A stretch of DNA of 35,940 bases from Prevotellaceae bacterium. Its GTDB lineage: Bacteria > Bacteroidota > Bacteroidia > Bacteroidales > Bacteroidaceae. The position numbers were made by a program, and so were the translations under genes. The notes below the pieces were generated by a model. The model had not been told where the DNA came from. It did not search any database and saw nothing but the letters and a program-made list of their open reading frames with translations. The stretch lies in assembly GCA_029219385.1 (NCBI GenBank), contig JAQXTH010000057.1, positions 1-35,940 on the forward strand. The letters are read 5' to 3'. Below, piece by piece: positions 1 through 15,855 of this stretch; the stretch's first letter is position 1, and each line of letters starts with the position of its first letter.

Positions 1-502
1 TTATCTCCTTGCTAAACTCGTTTTGGGCAGCTTCGAATTGTTCTAAGAAAAAATCTTCGTCAACAGGTTCGTTATTTTTGTGGTTAATTATATATTCGTT
101 TATGTTCTCATAGTATTGTTTGACAAATTTTCTATAAACAAATCCAATTTTGTTTTTTCTATATAGTGAACGGTTGGTGTTTAATATTACCTTCCCTTCC
201 TTTTTGTCAAAATGTACCACTGCAGGATTATAGAAAAAACCCAAAAGCCTCAACTTTTCGTTTTTCTGTTCAGAGGTTAGTTCGTTCGTCTCAAATCTCA
301 AGACGCTTTGATCTATATTTTGGGGATTTCGCCAATTAGAAGTATCTGCATGTACAACATTACTTTTTCCTAAAGGAATAGCTATTCCAAGGTTTGGTAT
401 ATCAAGAGTTATCGTATGTGCTATAAAAGCGTCCTGCGCCCACAAGAAATTAGTAAAACTCAGAAATACTATAACGGTATAAATTATCTTTTTCATATTC
501 AT
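1..502 (-). CDS. Secreted protein of unknown function, 3' end outside window
   Basis: I do not recognise this family. The reading frame opens with MNMKKIIYTV, has a hydrophobic stretch to about residue 20 ending ..FLWAQ (a type I signal peptide), and stays open for about 167 codons until it leaves the window at base 1. The C-terminus is therefore missing, which also explains why a simple ORF scan overlooks it. The mature part is mixed charged/aromatic with no motif I can name. Two in-frame ATGs lie at 502 and 496; the first is used here, and the same ATGAATATG arrangement opens the gene ending at 3954. It starts 6 bases after the repaired stop (509) of the preceding small gene, so both probably share the transcript that begins near the repeat at 797-918. 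Confidence 0.7.
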   Translation of the reverse strand, partial: MNMKKIIYTVIVFLSFTNFLWAQDAFIAHTITLDIPNLGIAIPLGKSNVVHADTSNWRNPQNIDQSVLRFETNELTSEQKNEKLRLLGFFYNPAVVHFDKKEGKVILNTNRSLYRKNKIGFVYRKFVKQYYENINEYIINHKNNEPVDEDFFLEQFEAAQNEFSKEI

Positions 503-508
503 AACAAA

Positions 509-752
509 TTAAAATACATACGTTCCGCTTTCCTGTATATTTCTTTGAAGATATTGAATTTCAACGGTGTCTTGATGAGTAGTTGGACCCTATCACATTG
601 TGACTATCACCACTGTAAACATTGGTACCATCAAAATAGAGCAGAAGACTGTCTTCATTCACACTGTTGCCCTTGTAAATATAGGTGGTGTCGTTTTGGG
701 CATACAGAAAAACACCGACCATAGCCATAAAACTAAATAATAACTTCCTCAT
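509..752 (-). pseudogene. Small secreted protein, probably frameshifted near its 3' end
   Basis: The uninterrupted frame runs 752 to 561 (63 residues) with a clear signal peptide (MRKLLFSFMAMVGVFLYAQ). It ends abruptly in Arg/His/Ser-rich residues after the stretch reading SGDSHNVIG. Shifting one frame at about 585-590 gives a continuation containing DTVEIQYLQ that stops at 509-511, only 6 bases before the next gene. That is the spacing expected in this operon, and a DTVE run also occurs in the neighbour at 3298-3954. I infer an intact ancestor of about 80 residues and a recent frameshift or a sequencing error. If the short form is real, the CDS is 561-752. Family unknown. Confidence 0.5.
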
Positions 753-796
753 AGTATTTATATATTAAATGAACCTAAAAACTCATCATCACAATA

Positions 797-918
797 ATAC
801 CACAAAATATCATCTACTTCTAATTCTATCTGTTAAATTGAGACTACTTTTGCAAGCCCCTCTATATATAATAACGACAAGACTCCCGAATTCGGACATC
901 CAAAACACAACTTTTTTT
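797..918 (-). repeat. Intergenic repeat, copy 1 (putative promoter/leader element)
   Basis: About 122 bases, nearly identical to the copy at 4000-4120: one mismatch over the first 73 bases, then a divergent middle, then an identical AAAACACAACTTTTTTT end. It lies 45 bases upstream of the minus-strand gene starting at 752. Read on the minus strand it starts with an A-tract, then GTTGTGTTTTGGATGTCCGA, then a TATATATAGAGGGGCTTGCA segment, then the 5' leader. No good TAnnTTTG primary-sigma box is present in it (best is TATTATTG). Confidence 0.75.
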
Positions 919-942
919 CATAAAACATGATTTTTTATTTAA

Positions 943-1080
943 TTACTGTTTTTCGCCCAACAATACGCTATCCGAAAGCCCAAAAAAGTCCGATCGTCAC
1001 CGCTCAAAGAAAACGGGCAGTGTCTATATTTTTTTGTGAACATCGACCATCGCCACGAAACAGAACAGTGAAACTCTCAT
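943..1080 (-). pseudogene. Decayed small secreted-protein gene
   Basis: On the minus strand an ATG at 1080 opens MRVSLFCFVAMVDVH, which resembles the signal peptide of the 509-752 gene (MRKLLFSFMAMVGVFLYAQ). The bases 5' of both start codons are also alike (AGT, then A/T-rich with ATTAAA). The frame is interrupted by in-frame stops after 18 codons and again later, and a last stop lies at 943-945. I read it as a degenerate duplicate of the neighbouring small gene. Together with the spacer 753-942 it accounts for the 425-base gap between intact genes. Confidence 0.5.
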
Positions 1081-1177
1081 AGTCGTATAATTTAAAGTAT
1101 TAAACTCTCTATTCGTTTGCAAATATATAAATATTATTATCACAACAAATATTCACACCCCAAAATTCATAAAAACG

Positions 1178-1669
1178 CTAAAGATCTATTCTGATTTTAA
1201 ATCGTTTTTTCTTTTCGTGATTGCAATTCTTTAACGTGCAAACAAAAACATAACAATTCCATTTGCGATAAAAACCATAATAACTGTCTTCCAAATACGA
1301 CACATTTTCCTCAATCGGTCCTTTCCTCGAATTAATAATATAGGGAAAACCATTCTTCTTGTCGTATGAAAAACTTATTTCAAGACTGTCTTCCACACCA
1401 ACAGAAGACAAATCAAACCTCATCACCCGATTTACCCAGCCCTCTTCGTTTTTGCTTATAATCTTGTTTTTGTCAACATCTACATACAAAACAAAACCAT
1501 TCTCGGCATTATACTTATGCGACACTGTTTTGCCGATAATAACCTGCAATGTGTCTTCGGCGTGAAAAACGCTGTCGCAGCTTGCCCCATTGCGCGAAAC
1601 ACACAAACCGTTGGCTACACTTGCAACACTCACAAAAAAACCTAGAGTAACCAATATTATATTTTTCAT
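1178..1669 (-). CDS. Secreted Cys-containing protein of the sigma-factor operon
   Basis: 163 residues with a signal peptide (MKNIILVTLGFFVSVASVANG, cleavage around residue 21) and about five cysteines in the mature part, which fits an oxidised, extracytoplasmic protein. I do not recognise the family. Predicted beta-rich; the end (YVFVCTLKNCNHEKKKRFKIRIDL region) has the alternating hydrophobic/charged hairpin pattern also seen at the C-termini of the neighbours and of the sigma factor. It begins 6 bases after the sigma factor stop, so the two are surely cotranscribed and probably translationally coupled. It is the last intact gene of the unit that starts near 3954. Confidence 0.7.
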   Translation of the reverse strand: MKNIILVTLGFFVSVASVANGLCVSRNGASCDSVFHAEDTLQVIIGKTVSHKYNAENGFVLYVDVDKNKIISKNEEGWVNRVMRFDLSSVGVEDSLEISFSYDKKNGFPYIINSRKGPIEENVSYLEDSYYGFYRKWNCYVFVCTLKNCNHEKKKRFKIRIDL

Positions 1670-1675
1670 ATCATT

Positions 1676-2710
1676 CTAAAAAACTTCCTTTTCAATTAAA
1701 ACGTCTCTGTCGTGGGTCTTGCCCTCGGAATTTTCATATACCAAAGTACCGCTCAGTCTGACTTTCAAATCGGCACTGTCCAACCCTGAATACATCTCGG
1801 CAGAGGGCACAAAAGCAGCATTGCTGCCCGCGTTGCTCACCACACTGTATTCACTGAGACTACTCCTGATTTTTCCATCGGCCGTTTTCTCAACCGACAT
1901 TTTCGCCATGAGCAAAACCTTTTCCGTTTCAAACATATAGCATACATAGACTTCGCGCGAAACCGTGTCAGAATATGCCACCACATTCTCTTGGCGCGAT
2001 GCACTCTCGGTCTTGGCAATCGCTGACGGTGACGCAACTACCGAAGCAGAAGACTTCGCGCCCTCCGATTGAGAAGTATCGGCCGCCGTCTCCGCCTCTT
2101 GTCGCCGGGCGACAGGTTTCTCTGCCTCGGCAACAGGGGCATTGAGCGGCGTGGCCGTCTTCTCCAATCTATTATTAAAAACAAAGTCAAATGAAATCGA
2201 AAAAACAACAATCAACACCACCACCGACGACATAATGCGGAAGAGCGTTGCTCGGGCACGACTCAGATTTCTGCGAACATTATCTACCGACATTCCCGTC
2301 ACTTGGGCAATCGTCTCAACATCTTTGCCTTTCAAATACATAAGTTCAAGCAACATACGTCGGCGCGAGGGCATCTTTTCGAGAGAACGCATAAGACGTT
2401 GGTCCTGCTCTTCGAGCATTTCGGGCGTTTCGATGTCGTCAGCCTCTTGAGTTTCTTCAACCGCTTCAAGGTCGCACAACTTGCAACGATTCTTCTTTTT
2501 TAGAAAATCCAAGCACTGATGTCTCACAATTTTGACCGACAGCGCATCGAGTGTAGCAAGACGTACCTTATCACGCATGAGCCACAACTTCATCAAACAG
2601 TTTTGCACTACATCCTTGGCATCCTCAACAGAGTCGAGAAAGCGCATGGCATTGTCGAACATCAGTTTTCTAATGCGCGGTGCCTCGTGTATGTATTCCT
2701 GTTCTGTCAT
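1676..2710 (-). CDS. ECF-type sigma factor fused to a transmembrane helix and extracytoplasmic domain
   Basis: 344 residues, roughly twice a normal ECF sigma factor. Residues 1-60 match sigma region 2 (..FLDSVEDAKDVVQNCLMKLW..). Residues 105-158 match region 4, with the helix-turn-helix DVETIAQVTGMSVDNVRRNLSRAR. A hydrophobic helix follows at about 159-178, then an Ala/Glu/Ser-rich linker (185-245) and a beta-rich domain (246-344). N-terminus in, C-terminus out is the expected topology, so the protein should be anchored in the inner membrane with its DNA-binding part in the cytoplasm. It sits mid-operon, 36 bases after the gene ending at 2747 and 6 bases before the one starting at 1669, both encoding exported proteins. 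No separate anti-sigma gene is visible; the tail may take that role. Release by proteolysis is inference. Confidence 0.85.
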   Translation of the reverse strand: MTEQEYIHEAPRIRKLMFDNAMRFLDSVEDAKDVVQNCLMKLWLMRDKVRLATLDALSVKIVRHQCLDFLKKKNRCKLCDLEAVEETQEADDIETPEMLEEQDQRLMRSLEKMPSRRRMLLELMYLKGKDVETIAQVTGMSVDNVRRNLSRARATLFRIMSSVVVLIVVFSISFDFVFNNRLEKTATPLNAPVAEAEKPVARRQEAETAADTSQSEGAKSSASVVASPSAIAKTESASRQENVVAYSDTVSREVYVCYMFETEKVLLMAKMSVEKTADGKIRSSLSEYSVVSNAGSNAAFVPSAEMYSGLDSADLKVRLSGTLVYENSEGKTHDRDVLIEKEVF

Positions 2711-2746
2711 TGTATGCTCATTTCTGCAACCATTGGGTTAGCGTTT

Positions 2747-3286
2747 TCAAATTATCACGAATTTCTTTTTCAGGACTTCCTTTTTCGTATGGTTTTCACT
2801 ATCGGTGAATGTTGCCTCTAAATCCAAATCAATATGCACATATCTCTCTGTCGTATAAATAAAATCACAATCATTAACCACAAGCGAGACATCAGAATAT
2901 TGTTTCAGCGCAGAAATATTTTCTCTTTGAATTCTAATCTTTTTGTCGGTTATCCGTTGCTTCTTTTCATCGAAAACCACCTCCAACACAACAAACGCAT
3001 CATATTCCTCGCCCAACTGCGAAAGCAAATATGTTTTAATGGTGTTGTTTTCGGACTTGGCAGTGTAAAACGCCTTTGTGGGAATTAGCCTCAGTTTCAT
3101 TCTATGAGTCACTTCCACCCTGTGCATTCCTGCCGAATCCGCCATTTCCTTCTCACCAACACACTCGCTACTCACCAACTCCAAAAGCCCCGATTCCTCC
3201 TCTTTGGTAATGGTGTCGTTATCACAGCATAATCCAAAAACATTGACACTCACAAACAGTGTTGACAGAAACAATAAAGTCTTCAT
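2747..3286 (-). CDS. Secreted protein of the sigma-factor operon
   Basis: 179 residues with a signal peptide (MKTLLFLSTLFVSVNVFG). The mature N-terminus starts with two adjacent cysteines, but the preceding residues do not form a good lipobox. The family is not recognised. A central stretch (EEYDAFVVLEVVFDEKKQRITDKKIRI) resembles the GYDAHIEARVRIDLSSKKVLS stretch of the next gene upstream. The C-terminus (LEATFTDSENHTKKEVL) resembles the last strands of the sigma factor's outer domain. It starts 11 bases after the stop of the 3298-3954 gene and precedes the sigma factor by 36 bases, so it belongs to the same transcript. Its position directly before the sigma gene makes it a candidate partner of the sigma tail (inference). 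Confidence 0.7.
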   Translation of the reverse strand: MKTLLFLSTLFVSVNVFGLCCDNDTITKEEESGLLELVSSECVGEKEMADSAGMHRVEVTHRMKLRLIPTKAFYTAKSENNTIKTYLLSQLGEEYDAFVVLEVVFDEKKQRITDKKIRIQRENISALKQYSDVSLVVNDCDFIYTTERYVHIDLDLEATFTDSENHTKKEVLKKKFVII

Positions 3287-3297
3287 ATCCTAAAAGT

Positions 3298-3954
3298 TTA
3301 AACATTATCTATACAATACATTTTTTCGTCAGGCGAAGGAACAAACCAGTGTTCTTTGACATTGCGAAAAACTCTCTTGCCCGACGGAGTAATGAACTGT
3401 ATCACGCCATCAAAATATGCAAAGAAACTTCCGTCTGACGTAACCTCCGAAGGAGCCAATTCGGGAGCAGACAAAAGCGTGATTTTTATTCCTCTGTCGC
3501 TCTTGGTGGTATACTCACACGACAAAACCTTTTTGGAAGACAAGTCTATTCTGACCCTCGCCTCGATGTGGGCATCATAGCCCTCTATATCAGAATATAC
3601 TACGGTGCGAAACTCAACGGTGTCTCCACTACGCTTCATCCCTGTTGGAACTTTCTCATACATCGAGAGACTCAACACCGGCACGCTCTCTGTCAGAGAA
3701 TTGCTTTTCTTCTTCTCTTTTATCAACTCTTCAACAAAACAGAAAAGTGTATCGGTATCACCTCGGGTAAGGCTTTTCATAAACACCTCTTGTCTGCCGA
3801 AATCGTCACCATAGAGAGCACACGCTTTCTTAAATATTTCAAACTGCTCAACAGTGGTTCTCTCCTTTACCCACAAAAATGTCTCTTCTTTCTGTGCAAA
3901 CATTCCAAGACTGAGCAACAGAAACACAAACGCCGATAACTTCTTCATATTCAT
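3298..3954 (-). CDS. Secreted protein, paralogue of the 4169-4870 product; first gene of the sigma operon
   Basis: About 218 residues from the ATG at 3954 (MNMKKLSAFVFLLLSLGMFAQ, a signal peptide); an upstream in-frame ATG at 3975 would put seven residues before the signal peptide and is less likely. The mature protein has an alpha-helical first half and a beta-rich second half. It aligns along its length with the product of 4169-4870: WVKERTTVEQFEIFKKA against WVKNVTTPEEYKIWEEV, and VYSDIEGYDAHIEARVRI against VYSSVKGYDVHLKVSARI. No known domain is recognised. Repeat copy 2 (4000-4120) lies directly upstream, marking this as the first gene of the transcription unit that contains the membrane-anchored sigma factor. 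Confidence 0.72.
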   Translation of the reverse strand: MNMKKLSAFVFLLLSLGMFAQKEETFLWVKERTTVEQFEIFKKACALYGDDFGRQEVFMKSLTRGDTDTLFCFVEELIKEKKKSNSLTESVPVLSLSMYEKVPTGMKRSGDTVEFRTVVYSDIEGYDAHIEARVRIDLSSKKVLSCEYTTKSDRGIKITLLSAPELAPSEVTSDGSFFAYFDGVIQFITPSGKRVFRNVKEHWFVPSPDEKMYCIDNV

Positions 3955-3999
3955 TTCATTTTTAATTAGGGACATTCAGAGTAGCTCTTCGTTCCAATT

Positions 4000-4120
4000 A
4001 TACCACAAAATATCATCTACTTCTAATTCTATCTGCTAAATTGAGACTACTTTTGCAAGCCCCTCTATATATATTACACACAACCTCGCGATTTCGGACA
4101 CCCAAAACACAACTTTTTTT
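4000..4120 (-). repeat. Intergenic repeat, copy 2 (putative promoter of the sigma operon)
   Basis: About 121 bases, matching 797-918 almost base for base in the leader-proximal part and again at the A-tract end. It lies 45 bases upstream of the start at 3954. Minus-strand order: A-tract, GTTGTGTTTTGGGTGTCCGA, then ATATATATAGAGGGGCTTGC, then the conserved leader. The best primary-sigma box inside is TATAATTG (one base off TAnnTTTG) without a TTTG at the right distance, so reading by an alternative sigma factor is plausible. Confidence 0.75.
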
Positions 4121-4138
4121 AATTGTGTTTTGGGTGTC
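4097..4138 (-). terminator. 16-base perfect inverted repeat with 10-base loop
   Basis: Arms GACACCCAAAACACAA (4097-4112) and its exact complement (4123-4138) enclose a 10-base loop containing a T-tract on the plus strand. It lies 31 bases past the stop of the gene ending at 4169, so it can terminate or attenuate that transcript. One arm belongs to repeat copy 2; copies 1 and 3 lack the partner arm. No T-run follows on the minus strand. Confidence 0.45.
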
Positions 4139-4168
4139 ATTCTATTTTCCGGAGTTACCACACATTAC

Positions 4169-4870
4169 TTACTCCAAAACACTATCTGCCCACGTCACCA
4201 AAATTTTATCTCTATTTGGATAACAGTCTAAAAGACCCACAATTACATTCACAAACTCCGACTTATCTTCTCCTTTAGGAGTAGAATACTTCAGGAAACC
4301 TGAAACATTAACAAGGTAGCGGCTTTTGTCTTTCTGCAACTGAAAAGTGAAAAGCAAAGGTTCAAAACTGCTCTGTATTCCCGACAAACTATATGTTTCT
4401 ATCCTTGAATTTGACAACACCGAATTTTCATCAAAAGCCACCCCGACAATCCTGGCAGACACTTTGAGATGAACATCATAACCTTTGACACTCGAATATA
4501 CAATCGCAGAAATATTATCACCTTCTATTTGGGGAGCAACAAATTTGTCGTGGTCAAACCCTTCCATCAATTTTGGTTTCTTCTTGTTTTTAACATCAGA
4601 TCTTTGCTTTTCTGCAACAGCTTCTTTTATTCGATTGTATGCCTTTTCGCGAACTACCTTGTCTGTCGCAGCTCTGCGAGACAATAACAAGGCAGAATTT
4701 TCGAAATCATAATCATAATATTTCACCACTTCTTCCCAAATCTTATACTCCTCGGGGGTTGTTACATTTTTCACCCAAGCGGGAATCAATCCCGATTCAT
4801 TGTCGGGCATTGCATGAGAAAATGAAATTCCCACACACAAAATTGCAATAATACAAAATACTTTTTTCAT
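4169..4870 (-). CDS. Secreted protein, paralogue of the 3298-3954 product
   Basis: 233 residues with a signal peptide (MKKVFCIIAILCVGISFSHA). The mature protein is a helical N-terminal half with many charged residues (about 30-110) followed by a beta-rich half. It is clearly paralogous to the next gene downstream: same length class, the WVK..TT motif near residue 32, the VYSSVKGYDVHL stretch near 125, and a C-terminal strand pair (VSGFLKYSTPKGEDKSEFVNV) matching FDGVIQFITPSGKRVFRNV. No known domain is recognised. It has its own upstream region with repeat copy 3 and is followed by the 4097-4138 hairpin, so it is probably a single-gene unit under the same control as the sigma operon. Confidence 0.72.
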   Translation of the reverse strand: MKKVFCIIAILCVGISFSHAMPDNESGLIPAWVKNVTTPEEYKIWEEVVKYYDYDFENSALLLSRRAATDKVVREKAYNRIKEAVAEKQRSDVKNKKKPKLMEGFDHDKFVAPQIEGDNISAIVYSSVKGYDVHLKVSARIVGVAFDENSVLSNSRIETYSLSGIQSSFEPLLFTFQLQKDKSRYLVNVSGFLKYSTPKGEDKSEFVNVIVGLLDCYPNRDKILVTWADSVLE

Positions 4871-4914
4871 AATTTACAGTTATAAAATGTTAATATTAAA
4901 ATCTATATAGCATA

Positions 4915-4990
4915 CACCTTATGCGAGCCTCTCTATATATATAATACGCACGACAACCTCATTTCGGACATCCAAAACACAACTTTTTTT
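4915..4990 (-). repeat. Intergenic repeat, copy 3 (promoter-distal half only)
   Basis: About 76 bases sharing with copies 1 and 2 the A-tract, GTTGTGTTTTGGATGTCCGAAAT, and the TATATATATAGAGAGGCTCGCA segment, but not the leader half. It lies 44 bases upstream of the start at 4870. The part shared by all three copies is therefore the upstream, promoter-like half, whereas the leader half is shared only by copies 1 and 2. Confidence 0.7.
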
Positions 4991-5495
4991 GCTCGTTTGA
5001 CAAAAGAATAAGCATAAGCAACATGAACAGACACCCTGATAAATAAATACACAATAATAATGTATCTTTATTCTACTCCTCCCCCTGCGCTAAAATGTTT
5101 TGTCGCGTGTCACGCCACTTCTTCTATACTATTTTCTCACGCAACTGCACCTCGCTATTTATTTCCGGCCGGAAATCTTAGTATCTCCGCCCGAAAATCT
5201 TAGTATCTCCGCCCGGAAATCTTAGTATCTCCGGCCGGAGATAAATGGAAAAGTGCGATGGAAATCCAAAAATGTGCAGAAGAGACCGACTGTTGACGAT
5301 TTGCCCACATACCGACCGTCTCACACTGTCATTAAATTGCTTTGCATTACCATTATGTTGCTTCTCACGGATAGCATGTTCTTCTCTTAGTTTTCTAAAA
5401 GCACATAAAAAACTCCAAAATTCTGCTCTATACATTATTTATAAATAACCTTATTATATATATACATATAAGTGAGAGAGGAAGTAAAACAAAAA
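4991..5495. other. Non-coding spacer
   Basis: Together with copy 3 and the terminator this fills the 691 bases between the secreted-protein block and fumarase. Apart from the 22-base tandem repeats listed separately, I see no gene with a believable start, composition or signal. A minus-strand frame of 85 codons (5178-5435) runs into the tandem repeats, ends in Arg/Phe-rich translation of them, and is not supported. Confidence 0.5.
5164..5243. repeat. 22-base tandem repeat, about 3.6 units
   Basis: Units start at 5164, 5186, 5208 and 5230 (partial). Each reads TCCG(G/C)CCGGAAATCTTAGTAT plus one base, with one or two substitutions. The outer units contain the self-complementary cores TTTCCGGCCGGAAA and ATCTCCGGCCGGAGAT, so the array can fold or be bound by a dimeric protein. 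It lies in non-coding DNA between two minus-strand genes. Confidence 0.8.
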
Positions 5496-5533
5496 GAGGG
5501 CACGGAGAAAGAATAAATATTCTCCGCACCCTC
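5485..5533 (-). terminator. Intrinsic terminator of the fumarase gene
   Basis: On the minus strand GAGGGTGCGGAGAA (5533-5520) pairs over 14 positions with TTCTCCGTGCCCTC (5509-5496), with two G-U pairs and a 10-base loop, followed by TTTTTGTTTT. It starts about 30 bases past the fumarase stop. Confidence 0.85.
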
Positions 5534-5561
5534 GTAAAAATGTATCTCCTCAACACACACG

Positions 5562-7205
5562 CTATTTGGAGCAGCAGCGCGGTTTGAGTTGCTTGAAGAA
5601 ATCATTGCCCTTGTCGTCAACAAGAATAAAGGCAGGGAAGTTCTCTACTTCAATTTTCCAGATGGCCTCCATGCCGAGTTCGGGATATTCCACACACTCT
5701 ATTGACTTGATGTTGTTTTGAGCAAGAATGGCAGCCGGTCCGCCAATCGAGCCGAGATAGAAACCTCCATGAGCCTTGCAGGCATTGGTCACGTCGATAG
5801 AACGATTGCCCTTGGCGAGCATGATGAGACTGCCTCCATTTGACTGGAACTCGTCGACATAGGGGTCCATGCGACCGGCAGTGGTGGGGCCCATCGAACC
5901 GCAGGCCATACCTTGAGGTGTCTTGGCAGGACCGGCATAATAGATTGGATGATTTTTGAGATATTCGGGCATTCCCTCTCCGGCATCAAGACGCGCCTTG
6001 ATTTTGGCATGGGCAATGTCGCGACCCACGATAATAGTGCCGTTGAGTGAGAGACGAGTGCCGATAGGATATTTTGTCAATATTTTGCACACATCCGCCA
6101 TGGGTTGGTTGAGGTCTATCTTGACGGCGTTGCCCTCGCCGGCATTGCGCAACTCCTCGGGAATGAGTTCATAGGGTTTGTCGTCCATTTTCTCAATCCA
6201 AATGCCATCTTTGTTGATTTTGCACTTTATGTTGCGGTCGGCAGAGCAACTCACACCCAATCCTATGGGGCATGACGCTCCGTGGCGCGGAAGGCGCACC
6301 ACTCTCACGTCGTGGGCCATATATTTGCCGCCAAACTGCGCACCGAGACCTATGTTCCACGCCTCCTTGAGAAGTTGCTCCTCAAGTTCAAGATCGCGAA
6401 AAGCGCGTCCGGTCTCATCGCCCGATGTGGGCAGAGAGTCATAGTAGTGGGTTGAGGCGAGTTTTACGGTGAGCAAGTTTTTCTCTGCACTGGTGCCACC
6501 GATGACAATGGCGATATGATAGGGCGGACACGCTGCCGTGCCGAGACTCTTTATTTTTTCAACAAGGAAAGGAATGAGAGTGCCGGGATTTTGTATGCGT
6601 GCCTTGGTTTCTTGATAGAGATATGTCTTGTTGGCCGAACCGCCACCCTTGGTGACACAGAGGAAGCGATATTCCATGCCCTCGGTGGCCTCGATATCGA
6701 TTTGGGCAGGCAGGTTGCAACGTGTGTTTACCTCATTATACATATCGAGGGGAGCGTTTTGAGAATAACGCAGATTTTCCTCAGTATAGGTTTTGTAGAC
6801 ACCCTTTGAGAGAGCCTCTTCGTCGCAGAAACCGGTCCAAACCTGCTGTCCCTTCTCACCGTGAATAATAGCGGTGCCGGTGTCTTGACATAATGGCAAG
6901 AGACCTTTTGCCGCCACCTCAGCATTGCGCAAGAAGGTTAGGGCAACATATTTGTCGTTGTCTGATGCCTCGGGGTCTGACAGGATTTTTGCCACCTGCT
7001 CATTGTGGCTGCGGCGCAAGAGGAAACTCACGTCGCGAAAAGCGGCGTTGGCCATTTTGGTGAGGCCCTCGGCTTCGACTTTCAAAATCGGGTGACCCTC
7101 AAATTGAGAGACCGACACATGGTCTTTGGTCAAAAGATAATACTCTGTGGTGTCTTGCCCCAACTGAAACATGGGAGCATAACGAAATTCCGGAGATTGT
7201 GCCAT
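5562..7205 (-). CDS. Fumarate hydratase, class I (4Fe-4S)
   Basis: 547 residues, the length of single-chain class I fumarases (FumA/FumB type), with both the N-terminal cluster/active-site part and the C-terminal beta domain (..[30 protein letters not shown]..). It interconverts fumarate and (S)-malate in the cytoplasm. In Bacteroidales this usually runs from malate to fumarate in the reductive branch that feeds fumarate reductase. Cysteines placed to hold the 4Fe-4S cluster are C106 (PLCQDTG), C226 (AACPPYH) and C312 (SCPIGLG). Such enzymes are oxygen sensitive, which fits an anaerobe. It is a single gene with its own promoter box and a strong terminator. Start: ATG at 7205, giving [16 protein letters not shown], which matches the usual family N-terminus. 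Confidence 0.95.
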
Positions 7206-10227: not shown

Positions 10228-11541
10228 ATGAGATTTTTTTTGTTACTGACACTTTGCCTTTTGGTAATGGCAACAAAGGCCTCTGTGGACTTTGACACAT
10301 ATTTTGACGGACGAACCTTGAGAATTGACTATACCTTTGCGGGCGACTCGACCTCACAACAGATTTTTGTAAATCAATATGCCTCGCTCGACAACTGGGC
10401 AGGACGCAGGGTTAATCTCGACAAATTGCAGATTGAGGGTACTGCCGACATCACCATGCGCACAAAAAAAGACGGCAAGGTGATTTATCGTTATTCTTTC
10501 TCCACTCATTTCCAAGACTATACGGGCATCGAGCAGGCCACCCGGCTGAAAGCCTCGTTTGACCATGTGGTGTTGCTGCCCATGCCGCGCGAGGAGGTCA
10601 ATATTGAAATTCGACTCTTCGACTTCAGACAAAAACCCGTGGCCTCACTCACCCACCCTTTTGACCCCAAAGACATCCTGATTCGCAATCTGTCGACCAA
10701 CGAACCCAAACCCGAGACTCGATATATCTTTAAATCGGGCGACAGCCGCGACCATATCGACATCGCCATTTTGGCCGAGGGATATACCAAAGAGGAACTG
10801 CCCATATTTTTTGAAGATGCAAAAAGATATGCCGACACTATTTTCAGTTGCGAACCTTTCAAGTCAAACCGCTCAAAATTCAACGTGGTGGCAGTTGGTG
10901 CCGTTTCTCAACAAAGCGGCATAAGCGAACCTGCCAAAGGCAAGTGGCTCAACACTGCCGCCGAGACTTTTTTTGACTTTTTGTATATGTCGCGCCTGTT
11001 GGGAGTGCCAAAACTCAGCAAAGTAAACGACCTTTTGGCCCACACAGACTATGAGCACATCTTGATTTTGGCCAACACCGACACCTATGGCGGCTGTGGT
11101 GTTTATAACAGTTATGCCATCAGTCCGGCTCACAATGCACAAAGCCTGCCGGTAGTGATACACGAGTTTGGTCACAGTTTCGGGGGCTTGGGCGATGAGT
11201 ATTTCTATGATGACAGTTACACGCAATACTACTACCCCGATGTGGAACCGTGGAACGAAAATCTCACAACACTCTTTGATTTCAAAAGAAAATGGGCAGA
11301 TATGCTGCCCAAGGGCGCACCAATTCCTACGCCGGCCGACACTGCCGGGAAACTTTCGAAAAACGATGCAACGACAATCGGTGTCTACGAAGGCGGTGGC
11401 TATCAGAGCAAAGGGGTCTACCGCCCCACCATAAACTGCCGTATGCGCACAAACGCAGTTAAAGAGTTTTGCCCCGTATGCAAACGAGCCATCAACAGAA
11501 TTATTGACTACAACCTAAAAGAAAACAATTCTCTGAAATGA
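10228..11541 (+). CDS. M64 family zinc metallopeptidase, exported
   Basis: 437 residues with a short signal peptide (MRFFLLLTLCLLVMATKA). The N-terminal beta-rich part (about 20-155) corresponds to the M64 pro/N-terminal domain. The catalytic part carries HEFGHSFGGLGDEYFY at 312-327: zinc-binding His312 and His316, catalytic Glu313, and Asp323 as the likely third ligand, the metzincin-like arrangement of family M64. The family is named after a clostridial IgA peptidase, but most Bacteroidales members have no known substrate. The gene lies within the mannosidase operon, 2 bases after the HAD gene and overlapping the next start by 4 bases (ATGA), so translation of the set is coupled. Confidence 0.9.
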   Translation: MRFFLLLTLCLLVMATKASVDFDTYFDGRTLRIDYTFAGDSTSQQIFVNQYASLDNWAGRRVNLDKLQIEGTADITMRTKKDGKVIYRYSFSTHFQDYTGIEQATRLKASFDHVVLLPMPREEVNIEIRLFDFRQKPVASLTHPFDPKDILIRNLSTNEPKPETRYIFKSGDSRDHIDIAILAEGYTKEELPIFFEDAKRYADTIFSCEPFKSNRSKFNVVAVGAVSQQSGISEPAKGKWLNTAAETFFDFLYMSRLLGVPKLSKVNDLLAHTDYEHILILANTDTYGGCGVYNSYAISPAHNAQSLPVVIHEFGHSFGGLGDEYFYDDSYTQYYYPDVEPWNENLTTLFDFKRKWADMLPKGAPIPTPADTAGKLSKNDATTIGVYEGGGYQSKGVYRPTINCRMRTNAVKEFCPVCKRAINRIIDYNLKENNSLK

Positions 11542-14937: not shown

Positions 14938-15813
14938 CTAACTACGGCACTCTATCTCATCAATCGACAAACCTGTCAACCTGGAAATATCTTCAGAAGA
15001 AACTCCTTGTTGCTTCATCATTTTTATCAATTCGGCACGACCCTCGGCACGACCCTCGGCACGACCCTTCTCGATACCCTCGGCAAAACTGTCTTTCTTT
15101 GCTGTGTTGATTGCGTTGACAATGTCACGATAAGCATTTTGACTGTCTTCGTATTGCTTCAACTCGAAATGATTGAACTTGGAAATCTCCGCCTGCTCAA
15201 ATAAACGGGTGAACACTCGTTCTTGCAAGGCAAGAGGACGCTCCATAAGGGCTGACAGATTCTTAAGAATGTACATCCACTTATCATACATCGTGACAAG
15301 TTCCGACTCGCGCTTATTGAACTTGGGTATCTCTATGTAAACATAAGTGAGTTTGTCATAAAATACTTTCTTCGTCTCAACTTCCATAAGCTTAACCTCA
15401 TGGTGCCAATGCCTCGCCTCGTCAAGTCCCTCTGCAAAATTAAAATTCAACAATCCTATCGTATAAACGGGACTGAGGTGGAAATCCCAATCACCACCAC
15501 GACGAGCCTGCTCACGAATGGGAAAGGTGGAATAATATATCGTGCGGTCCTTGAAAAACTCTTGATACACATTCTGCATCTCAACAATAAACTTGTCGCC
15601 CTTTTGGTTTTCGCAATAAACGTCGAATATGGCACGACGAGCATCAACACGGTCACCCAACTGTTCCGAATTGATATAAGTGACATCTTTCACATCTTGT
15701 TCACCCATGAATATAGCGTTAAGGAAACTGATGAGCAGTTCCTTATTGAACTCTGAGCCAAACAACCGCTTAAAGCCAAAATCCGTGCGAGGATTGATAT
15801 ATCTTTCCGTCAT
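14938..15813 (-). CDS. Rpn family PD-(D/E)XK nuclease / putative transposase
   Basis: 291 residues opening with INPRTDFGFKRLFGSEFNK, the standard start of this family (PDDEXK_2, often annotated as transposase). Nuclease residues are visible as D64 (FDVYCENQ) and E78-x-Q80 (VEMQ). The C-terminus carries EKGRAEGRAEGRAEL, encoded by three exact 12-base units, then a helix-turn-helix-like end (GVSSEDISRLTGLSIDEIE). Related E. coli Rpn proteins are DNA endonucleases that promote RecA-independent recombination, and their C-terminal repeats vary between strains. No inverted repeats or target duplications are visible around the gene, so it is not a typical insertion sequence. Confidence 0.88.
   Translation of the reverse strand: MTERYINPRTDFGFKRLFGSEFNKELLISFLNAIFMGEQDVKDVTYINSEQLGDRVDARRAIFDVYCENQKGDKFIVEMQNVYQEFFKDRTIYYSTFPIREQARRGGDWDFHLSPVYTIGLLNFNFAEGLDEARHWHHEVKLMEVETKKVFYDKLTYVYIEIPKFNKRESELVTMYDKWMYILKNLSALMERPLALQERVFTRLFEQAEISKFNHFELKQYEDSQNAYRDIVNAINTAKKDSFAEGIEKGRAEGRAEGRAELIKMMKQQGVSSEDISRLTGLSIDEIECRS
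15033..15068 (-). repeat. Three 12-base tandem units inside the Rpn gene
   Basis: CGGCACGACCCT repeats at 15033, 15045 and 15057, coding on the minus strand for the repeated Glu-Gly-Arg-Ala tract. The units are in frame, so unit gain or loss would change length without a frameshift. Confidence 0.85.
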
Positions 15814-15855
15814 GACAAAATGTATTTATATTATTGTTTTAGCGTATAGACTTTG

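Follow-up and report, generated by a model that had tools for sequence, protein, structure and literature searches.

How can an extracytoplasmic function (ECF) sigma factor be controlled if it is itself a membrane protein? The question is raised by a gene at 1676..2710 on the minus strand of the window, by which we mean the whole 35,940-nucleotide (nt) stretch analysed here (assembly GCA_029219385.1, contig JAQXTH010000057.1, positions 1 to 35,940), which comes from a Prevotellaceae bacterium. The gene joins sigma regions 2 and 4, a predicted transmembrane segment and an outer beta domain in one frame. We lean towards the view that its product is kept inactive by being tethered to the membrane, and that it would be freed by trimming of the outer part followed by RseP cleavage, much as IutY of P. 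putida is.

The fused sigma gene

The gene is a single open frame of 344 codons, with the ATG at 2710 and the stop codon at 1676-1678, whereas frame 1 of the plus strand contains many stops. The start agrees with those of relatives (MTEQEYIHEA here, MTEKEYRKEV and MTTEEYQQEA at the fetched loci L013 and L014). Its parts are the following.

1676..2710, minus strand: whole gene of the putatively membrane-anchored ECF sigma factor, 344 residues (open frame, Pfam, NCBIfam, alignment with relatives)
2486..2653, minus strand: sigma region 2, residues 20-75 (Pfam PF04542, 29.5 bits, cut-off 24)
2243..2401, minus strand: sigma region 4, residues 104-156 (Pfam PF08281, Sigma70_r4_2, 50 bits, cut-off 25.7)
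2180..2236, minus strand: predicted transmembrane segment, N-terminus inside, the sole hydrophobic segment, residues 159-177 (mean Kyte-Doolittle value 2.43)
1997..2170, minus strand: linker rich in Ala, Ser and Glu, residues 181-238 (composition; predicted local confidence, pLDDT, below 50, no predicted structure)
1685..1960, minus strand: outer six-stranded beta domain, residues 251-342 (AlphaFold2, full chain and alone)

Besides the two Pfam models, the protein passed the generic ECF model TIGR02937 of NCBIfam, which identifies it as an ECF sigma factor. Its best NCBIfam match among those shown was NF058625 (the GFO_1088/PG0214 family), at 105 bits and thus under the curated cut-off of 130, so the protein was not assigned to that family. 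The residues conserved among relatives are retained in its sigma part. A PDB search with the protein matched structures of ECF sigma factors, the strongest of them at E 1.5e-4; it also gave one chain named 'CAP repeat' at 6e-8.

Residues 159-177 are the most hydrophobic 19 residues of the chain, with a mean within the range of 1.53-2.55 found in the 63 separate membrane proteins described below. The 15 residues preceding the segment include five Arg and no acidic residue, which fits the predicted topology with the N-terminus inside. Only two residues lie between the end of region 4 (156) and the start of the segment (159), too few to accommodate an anti-sigma domain in the cytosol, and the protein has none. 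The original prediction of sigma regions 2 and 4, a hydrophobic segment, a linker and a beta domain in one chain was thus borne out by Pfam, Kyte-Doolittle values and AlphaFold2. Its 20-residue helix corresponds to residues 159-177, while the linker, put at 60 residues and called Ala/Glu-rich, proved to be 58 residues long and to be rich in Ser as well (14 Ala, 9 Ser, 7 Glu).

When AlphaFold2 was given the full chain with a 38-row alignment (the window protein and 37 sigma relatives), pLDDT exceeded 90 across most of the sigma part and was low over residues 165-247, and the predicted template-modelling score (pTM) of the whole chain was 0.38. In this model a helix spans residues 142-164, so that the last helix of region 4 extends over the first residues of the hydrophobic segment. 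Folded alone and without relatives, the outer domain kept its six strands (mean pLDDT 78, pTM 0.66), and the G+C content by codon position in the part of the gene that encodes it is gene-like (0.48/0.37/0.53). It had no family match, nor, in Pfam, any match to FecR up to E 1, and its earlier description as a sensor was a guess.

A frameshift between sigma and tail, which would have undermined the original prediction, does not explain the fusion: the frame is open throughout, and the two-residue gap leaves no stretch in which a broken anti-sigma domain could appear to lie. Among the repeats of at least 18 nt within positions 1-5600 of the window, none was found at the junction of sigma and membrane segment (2220-2260).

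Sigma factor and membrane protein in the relatives

The 78 loci fetched for comparison are mostly best-scoring matches and not a random sample; three have no sigma frame (L037, L038, L069), five are copies of the window gene, and 70 carry another sigma frame. A hydrophobic segment (19-residue mean of at least 1.5) was present inside the sigma frame in all five copies of the window gene and in 0 of the 70 other loci. In an alignment of 37 relatives, most sigma frames stop within about 15 residues of the position at which the membrane segment starts in the window protein. The membrane protein is encoded separately downstream: at 69 distinct sigma places (L076 repeats L007) we found 63 distinct proteins with a single transmembrane segment (entry limit, a 19-residue mean of 1.4), with 48-100 residues before the segment and 48-210 after it. 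The script returned none at L006, L010, L022, L032, L035 and L077, but L010, L032 and L035 do show such a protein, the start of which had been called too early. Moreover, in 14 further sigma matches, fetched later and picked mostly for their long open frames, all 14 frames end 8-18 residues past the sigma part with no transmembrane segment after region 4, and their extra length lies upstream. When 62 sigma relatives were placed in a tree, the branch of the window sigma was long (1.61) and its position lacked firm support. By these sequence comparisons, the original proposal that a sigma factor and a membrane and outer part are fused here is supported: what relatives make from two genes would be made as one chain.

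The part of the separate downstream proteins that precedes the membrane segment shares the motif EGETSLEEE..L..YF. Their location and topology make these proteins likely anti-sigma factors, and their family is likely undescribed. None of eight tested had a Pfam match, and NCBIfam matched only that of L005, below the cut-off; a PDB search with the putative anti-sigma alignment gave a best E of 0.18, which is chance level. In many Bacteroidales, the gene that immediately follows an NF058625-like sigma gene encodes a protein with this motif and a single membrane segment (for example, L013:1996-2550, L014:1964-2485 and L027:1989-2450). A DUF5024 protein is encoded by the third gene of the unfused sigma operon at L013 (2652-3041), a hint that small exported proteins may be the usual cargo of NF058625-like sigma units.

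A profile of the pre-membrane part, from which the partners in the genome under study had been left out, recovered three of those four partners (L002, L003, L004) and missed L005. Run against all six frames of the window, this profile, with its one miss in four controls, returned nothing credible (best E 0.51, in another frame, 14941-15825), in agreement with the original observation that no anti-sigma gene is visible in the operon. Inside the sigma part it scored just 0.6 bits; the pre-membrane domain, with its motif in the form EG.TS.EE..L..YF, was thus not found in the window protein. That the tail of the window protein is the tail of the separate regulators was not supported either, as the whole-protein profile reached only E 9.9 on the window frame.

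Neighbouring genes, upstream element and genomic setting

The sigma gene occupies third place among four closely spaced minus-strand genes, in the order P4, P3, sigma and P2, with gaps of 11, 36 and 6 nt.

1178..1669, minus strand: P2, small protein with a signal-like N-terminus, 6 nt downstream of the sigma gene; no Pfam match and no NCBIfam match near cut-off
2747..3286, minus strand: P3, small protein with a signal-like N-terminus, 36 nt upstream of the sigma gene; its C-terminal half is a possible paralogue of the beta domain
3298..3975, minus strand: P4, small protein with a signal-like N-terminus, 11 nt from P3; first gene of the likely sigma unit
4169..4870, minus strand: P5, small protein with a signal-like N-terminus, paralogue of P4
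4091..4113, minus strand: copy of a conserved element before P4 and the sigma unit, 0 mismatches
4961..4983, minus strand: copy of the element before P5, 0 mismatches
889..911, minus strand: copy of the element before a 63-codon open frame starting at 752, 0 mismatches

P4 and P5 are paralogues (E 1e-11, 27% identity), and the N-termini of both show a weak likeness, below cut-off, to PF22095 (BT_3535-like; E 0.069 and 0.002). The C-terminal half of P3 is possibly paralogous to the beta domain of the sigma protein: the untrimmed comparison of P3 with the tail gave a score reached by 11 and 7 of 1000 shuffles and a pairwise BLASTP E of 0.002, and after a trimming that was chosen afterwards the score was reached by 1 of 5000. 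The wider idea that the outer domain forms one family with P2, P4, P5 and P6 was not supported, as scores against the tail were commonly reached by shuffles (out of 1000, 346 and 511 for P2, 199 and 410 for P4, 92 and 56 for P5, 987 and 891 for P6). A second shuffle test agreed for P2, P4 and P5, and a P4/P5 profile matched neither the tail (E 0.074) nor P3 (E 0.44) nor P2 (E 0.17). No receptor-like gene was seen among the frames of the cluster.

Two blocks make up the element, first the conserved GTTGTGTTTTGG[AG]TGTCCGAA[AT]T and then one of TATATATA type; it precedes P4, P5 and the frame at 752. A search of the whole genome for the pattern with up to three mismatches found five sites, as against none for the reversed control. 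Four copies are intergenic, three of them in the sigma cluster; the fifth site falls within a coding frame and is likely due to chance. The fourth intergenic copy (contig C26, 1718-1740, the same positions in locus L093) lies about 90 nt before a distant lipoprotein-like gene, whose product barely passes a TolB-like propeller model (29.5 bits, cut-off 29.2). Among the 18 other genomes of the genus, one has a single site, with three mismatches. From its position we infer that the element is a candidate target promoter of this sigma factor. A near-perfect hairpin at window positions 4090-4150 (GACACCCAAAACACAA ... TTGTGTTTTGGGTGTC) has the copy before P4 as one of its arms; it was not seen at the other copies.

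The gene adjoining the cluster, which we take to encode a fumarase from reading its protein, was found in 18 of the 19 genomes of the genus, its own included. In 10 genus-mates the stretches around it contained no gene of the cluster; in six of them (L127-L131, L133) the next frame past it bears MPTPHISAP.GAFAKTV and is presumably a purine nucleoside phosphorylase. As far as seen, the cluster (window 1-5100) therefore appears lineage-specific, and it resembles an insertion; its G+C content is 0.391, compared with 0.445 across the window. Repeats with a 22-nt period (ATCTTAGTATCTCCG type) that double as a large inverted repeat lie at 5147-5256, between the fumarase-like gene and the cluster. 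Elsewhere in the window, the protein encoded at 10228-11541 has kin at 63-65% identity in four of nine loci (two in Bacteroidaceae assemblies from the rumen of yak, two in uncultured Bacteroidales) and at 30-45% in the other five.

Proposed mode of action and comparison with known systems

In the mechanism that we favour, the sigma factor would be held in the inner membrane by the segment that starts just past region 4, with the beta domain outside, and tethering together with crowding of region 4 against the membrane would keep it off. A signal at the beta domain would allow a site-1 protease to trim the outer part; RseP would then cleave in or near the membrane segment and free residues 1 to about 160. 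Such proteolytic release was one of the modes put forward in the original prediction, and what we found is consistent with it. The freed sigma factor would activate the element before the P4-P3-sigma-P2 row, P5 and the distant lipoprotein-like gene. Tethering as the off-state and release by RseP seem to us most likely because the order and sizes of the parts match those of IutY, and because the genome contains one RseP-type M50 protease and four S41 (Prc-type) matches. A more specific version, which we consider doubtful, is that the membrane has replaced the anti-sigma factor, that the outer domain was recruited from the P3 family, and that the design arose apart from IutY; in it, the recognition helix of region 4, running straight into the membrane segment, would suffice to hold the sigma factor off until RseP cuts.

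Several points weigh against the favoured mechanism. The same protease searches matched M50 in all 14 control genomes and S41 in 10 of them, so the presence of both families lends it little. Cleavage and membrane localisation are predictions from sequence, the link between element and sigma factor is one of position, and the proposal names no inducing signal, site-1 protease or receptor. The source is one draft genome of 62 contigs, 87.6% complete. In 399 genomes of the family, the tail was found in its own genome and otherwise gave two weak matches (E 0.003 and 0.008), both in loci without a sigma frame; it was found in none of the 18 other genomes of the genus. The search for further sigma factors with a membrane segment that the original prediction had suggested, run as a query of region 4 plus segment with limited reach, gave no second fusion in 393 genomes of the order; six other genomes matched at E 1e-7, with matches ending at query residues 54-60 and in one case at 66, across a stop. 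A search of genome contigs gave no relatives of the window protein. NF058625 matched in 399 of 399 family genomes, with at most eight candidates scored in each, and the longest open frame among the matches listed was 225 codons. The fusion thus appears to be absent elsewhere within the limits of these searches.

Could the protein act without being cut? Changes in the outer domain would then pass through the membrane segment to region 4, as in membrane regulators of the ToxR/CadC type. Stiff coupling is conceivable in the model, as the last helix of region 4 (142-164) enters the segment without a linker, and the C-terminal end of a recognition helix faces away from DNA. On the outer side, however, the 58 residues without predicted structure would make a poor relay, and we consider this unlikely. 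Neither do we expect, for the most part, that the gene is a recent, decaying fusion in which a deletion took the sigma stop codon and the anti-sigma domain and left an inert protein. The rarity of the tail and the absence of the cluster around the fumarase-like gene of the genus-mates would fit such an event, but there is no stop or frameshift, the conserved sigma residues are kept, the beta domain folds alone with fair confidence and is encoded with a gene-like codon-position G+C content, and the membrane segment and tail are unlike those of the separate regulators from which a simple deletion would have derived them.

An assembly artefact that joined the sigma gene to another gene would account for a fusion seen in a single draft, of which no independent copy was found. 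We think it improbable, given that none of the repeats of 18 nt or more within positions 1-5600 lies at the junction, that the join is in frame and yields a standard topology, and that the neighbours P3 and P2 adjoin sigma closely and on the same strand. Finally, the membrane segment might merely position the sigma factor, with control by a separate anti-sigma factor encoded elsewhere. The genome does encode other putative anti-sigma proteins (L002-L005), but all four adjoin their own sigma genes and the profile with its one miss in four controls found none in the window, which makes this very improbable.

If active, the fusion would give the IutY design a second example, one whose outer domain is unrelated; it would be a compact one-gene switch from outside to inside, and would offer a test of whether tethering by itself can silence a sigma factor that lacks an anti-sigma domain. 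The comparison with relatives also reveals a likely anti-sigma family, encoded next to the related sigma genes of many Bacteroidales genomes; the eight members tested lack annotation. According to a 2020 survey, class I anti-sigma domains lie beside only 6% of ECF factors in this phylum (PMC7406223). We found no report of such a fusion in Bacteroidota in open-licence PubMed Central, a result that says little, as the main ECF reclassification paper was not among the hits.

As described in the IutY papers (PMC5411451, PMC9249621), this 374-residue protein has cytosolic sigma2 (8-84) and sigma4 (100-164) domains, one transmembrane segment and a FecR-like periplasmic part; after trimming by Prc and cutting by RseP, a 23 kDa sigma fragment is seen. 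Every mutant protein that retained periplasmic residues was RseP-dependent, and a 168-residue truncation comprises only the cytosolic sigma domain, which leaves little room for a cytosolic anti-sigma domain in IutY. The window protein shares with this cell-surface signalling hybrid (group ECF243) the order sigma2, sigma4, transmembrane segment (here predicted) and periplasmic part, a similar size (344 and 374 residues), and a single chain without a cytosolic anti-sigma domain, and it probably works like IutY. By its sequence it is not a member of the IutY family, because it has no FecR domain; IutY, in the same sources, works with the receptor IutA, and the sigma part of the window protein is nearest to NF058625, the fetched relatives of which are unfused. 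The groups ECF48, ECF52 and ECF53 are also predicted fusions of sigma, transmembrane segment and outer part for which cleavage has been proposed, an example being SCO4117 of Streptomyces coelicolor, where a proline-rich stretch precedes the outer domain; these actinobacterial proteins (PMC8999054, PMC5826349) hold a zinc-finger, likely anti-sigma, domain between sigma and the transmembrane segment, which was not found in the window protein. The contrast with ECF factors as normally soluble proteins, drawn in the original prediction, was therefore overstated. The sigma-transmembrane-outer architecture has been published for IutY and for ECF48, ECF52 and ECF53, and what the window adds is an IutY-type design with an unrelated outer domain, in one genome.
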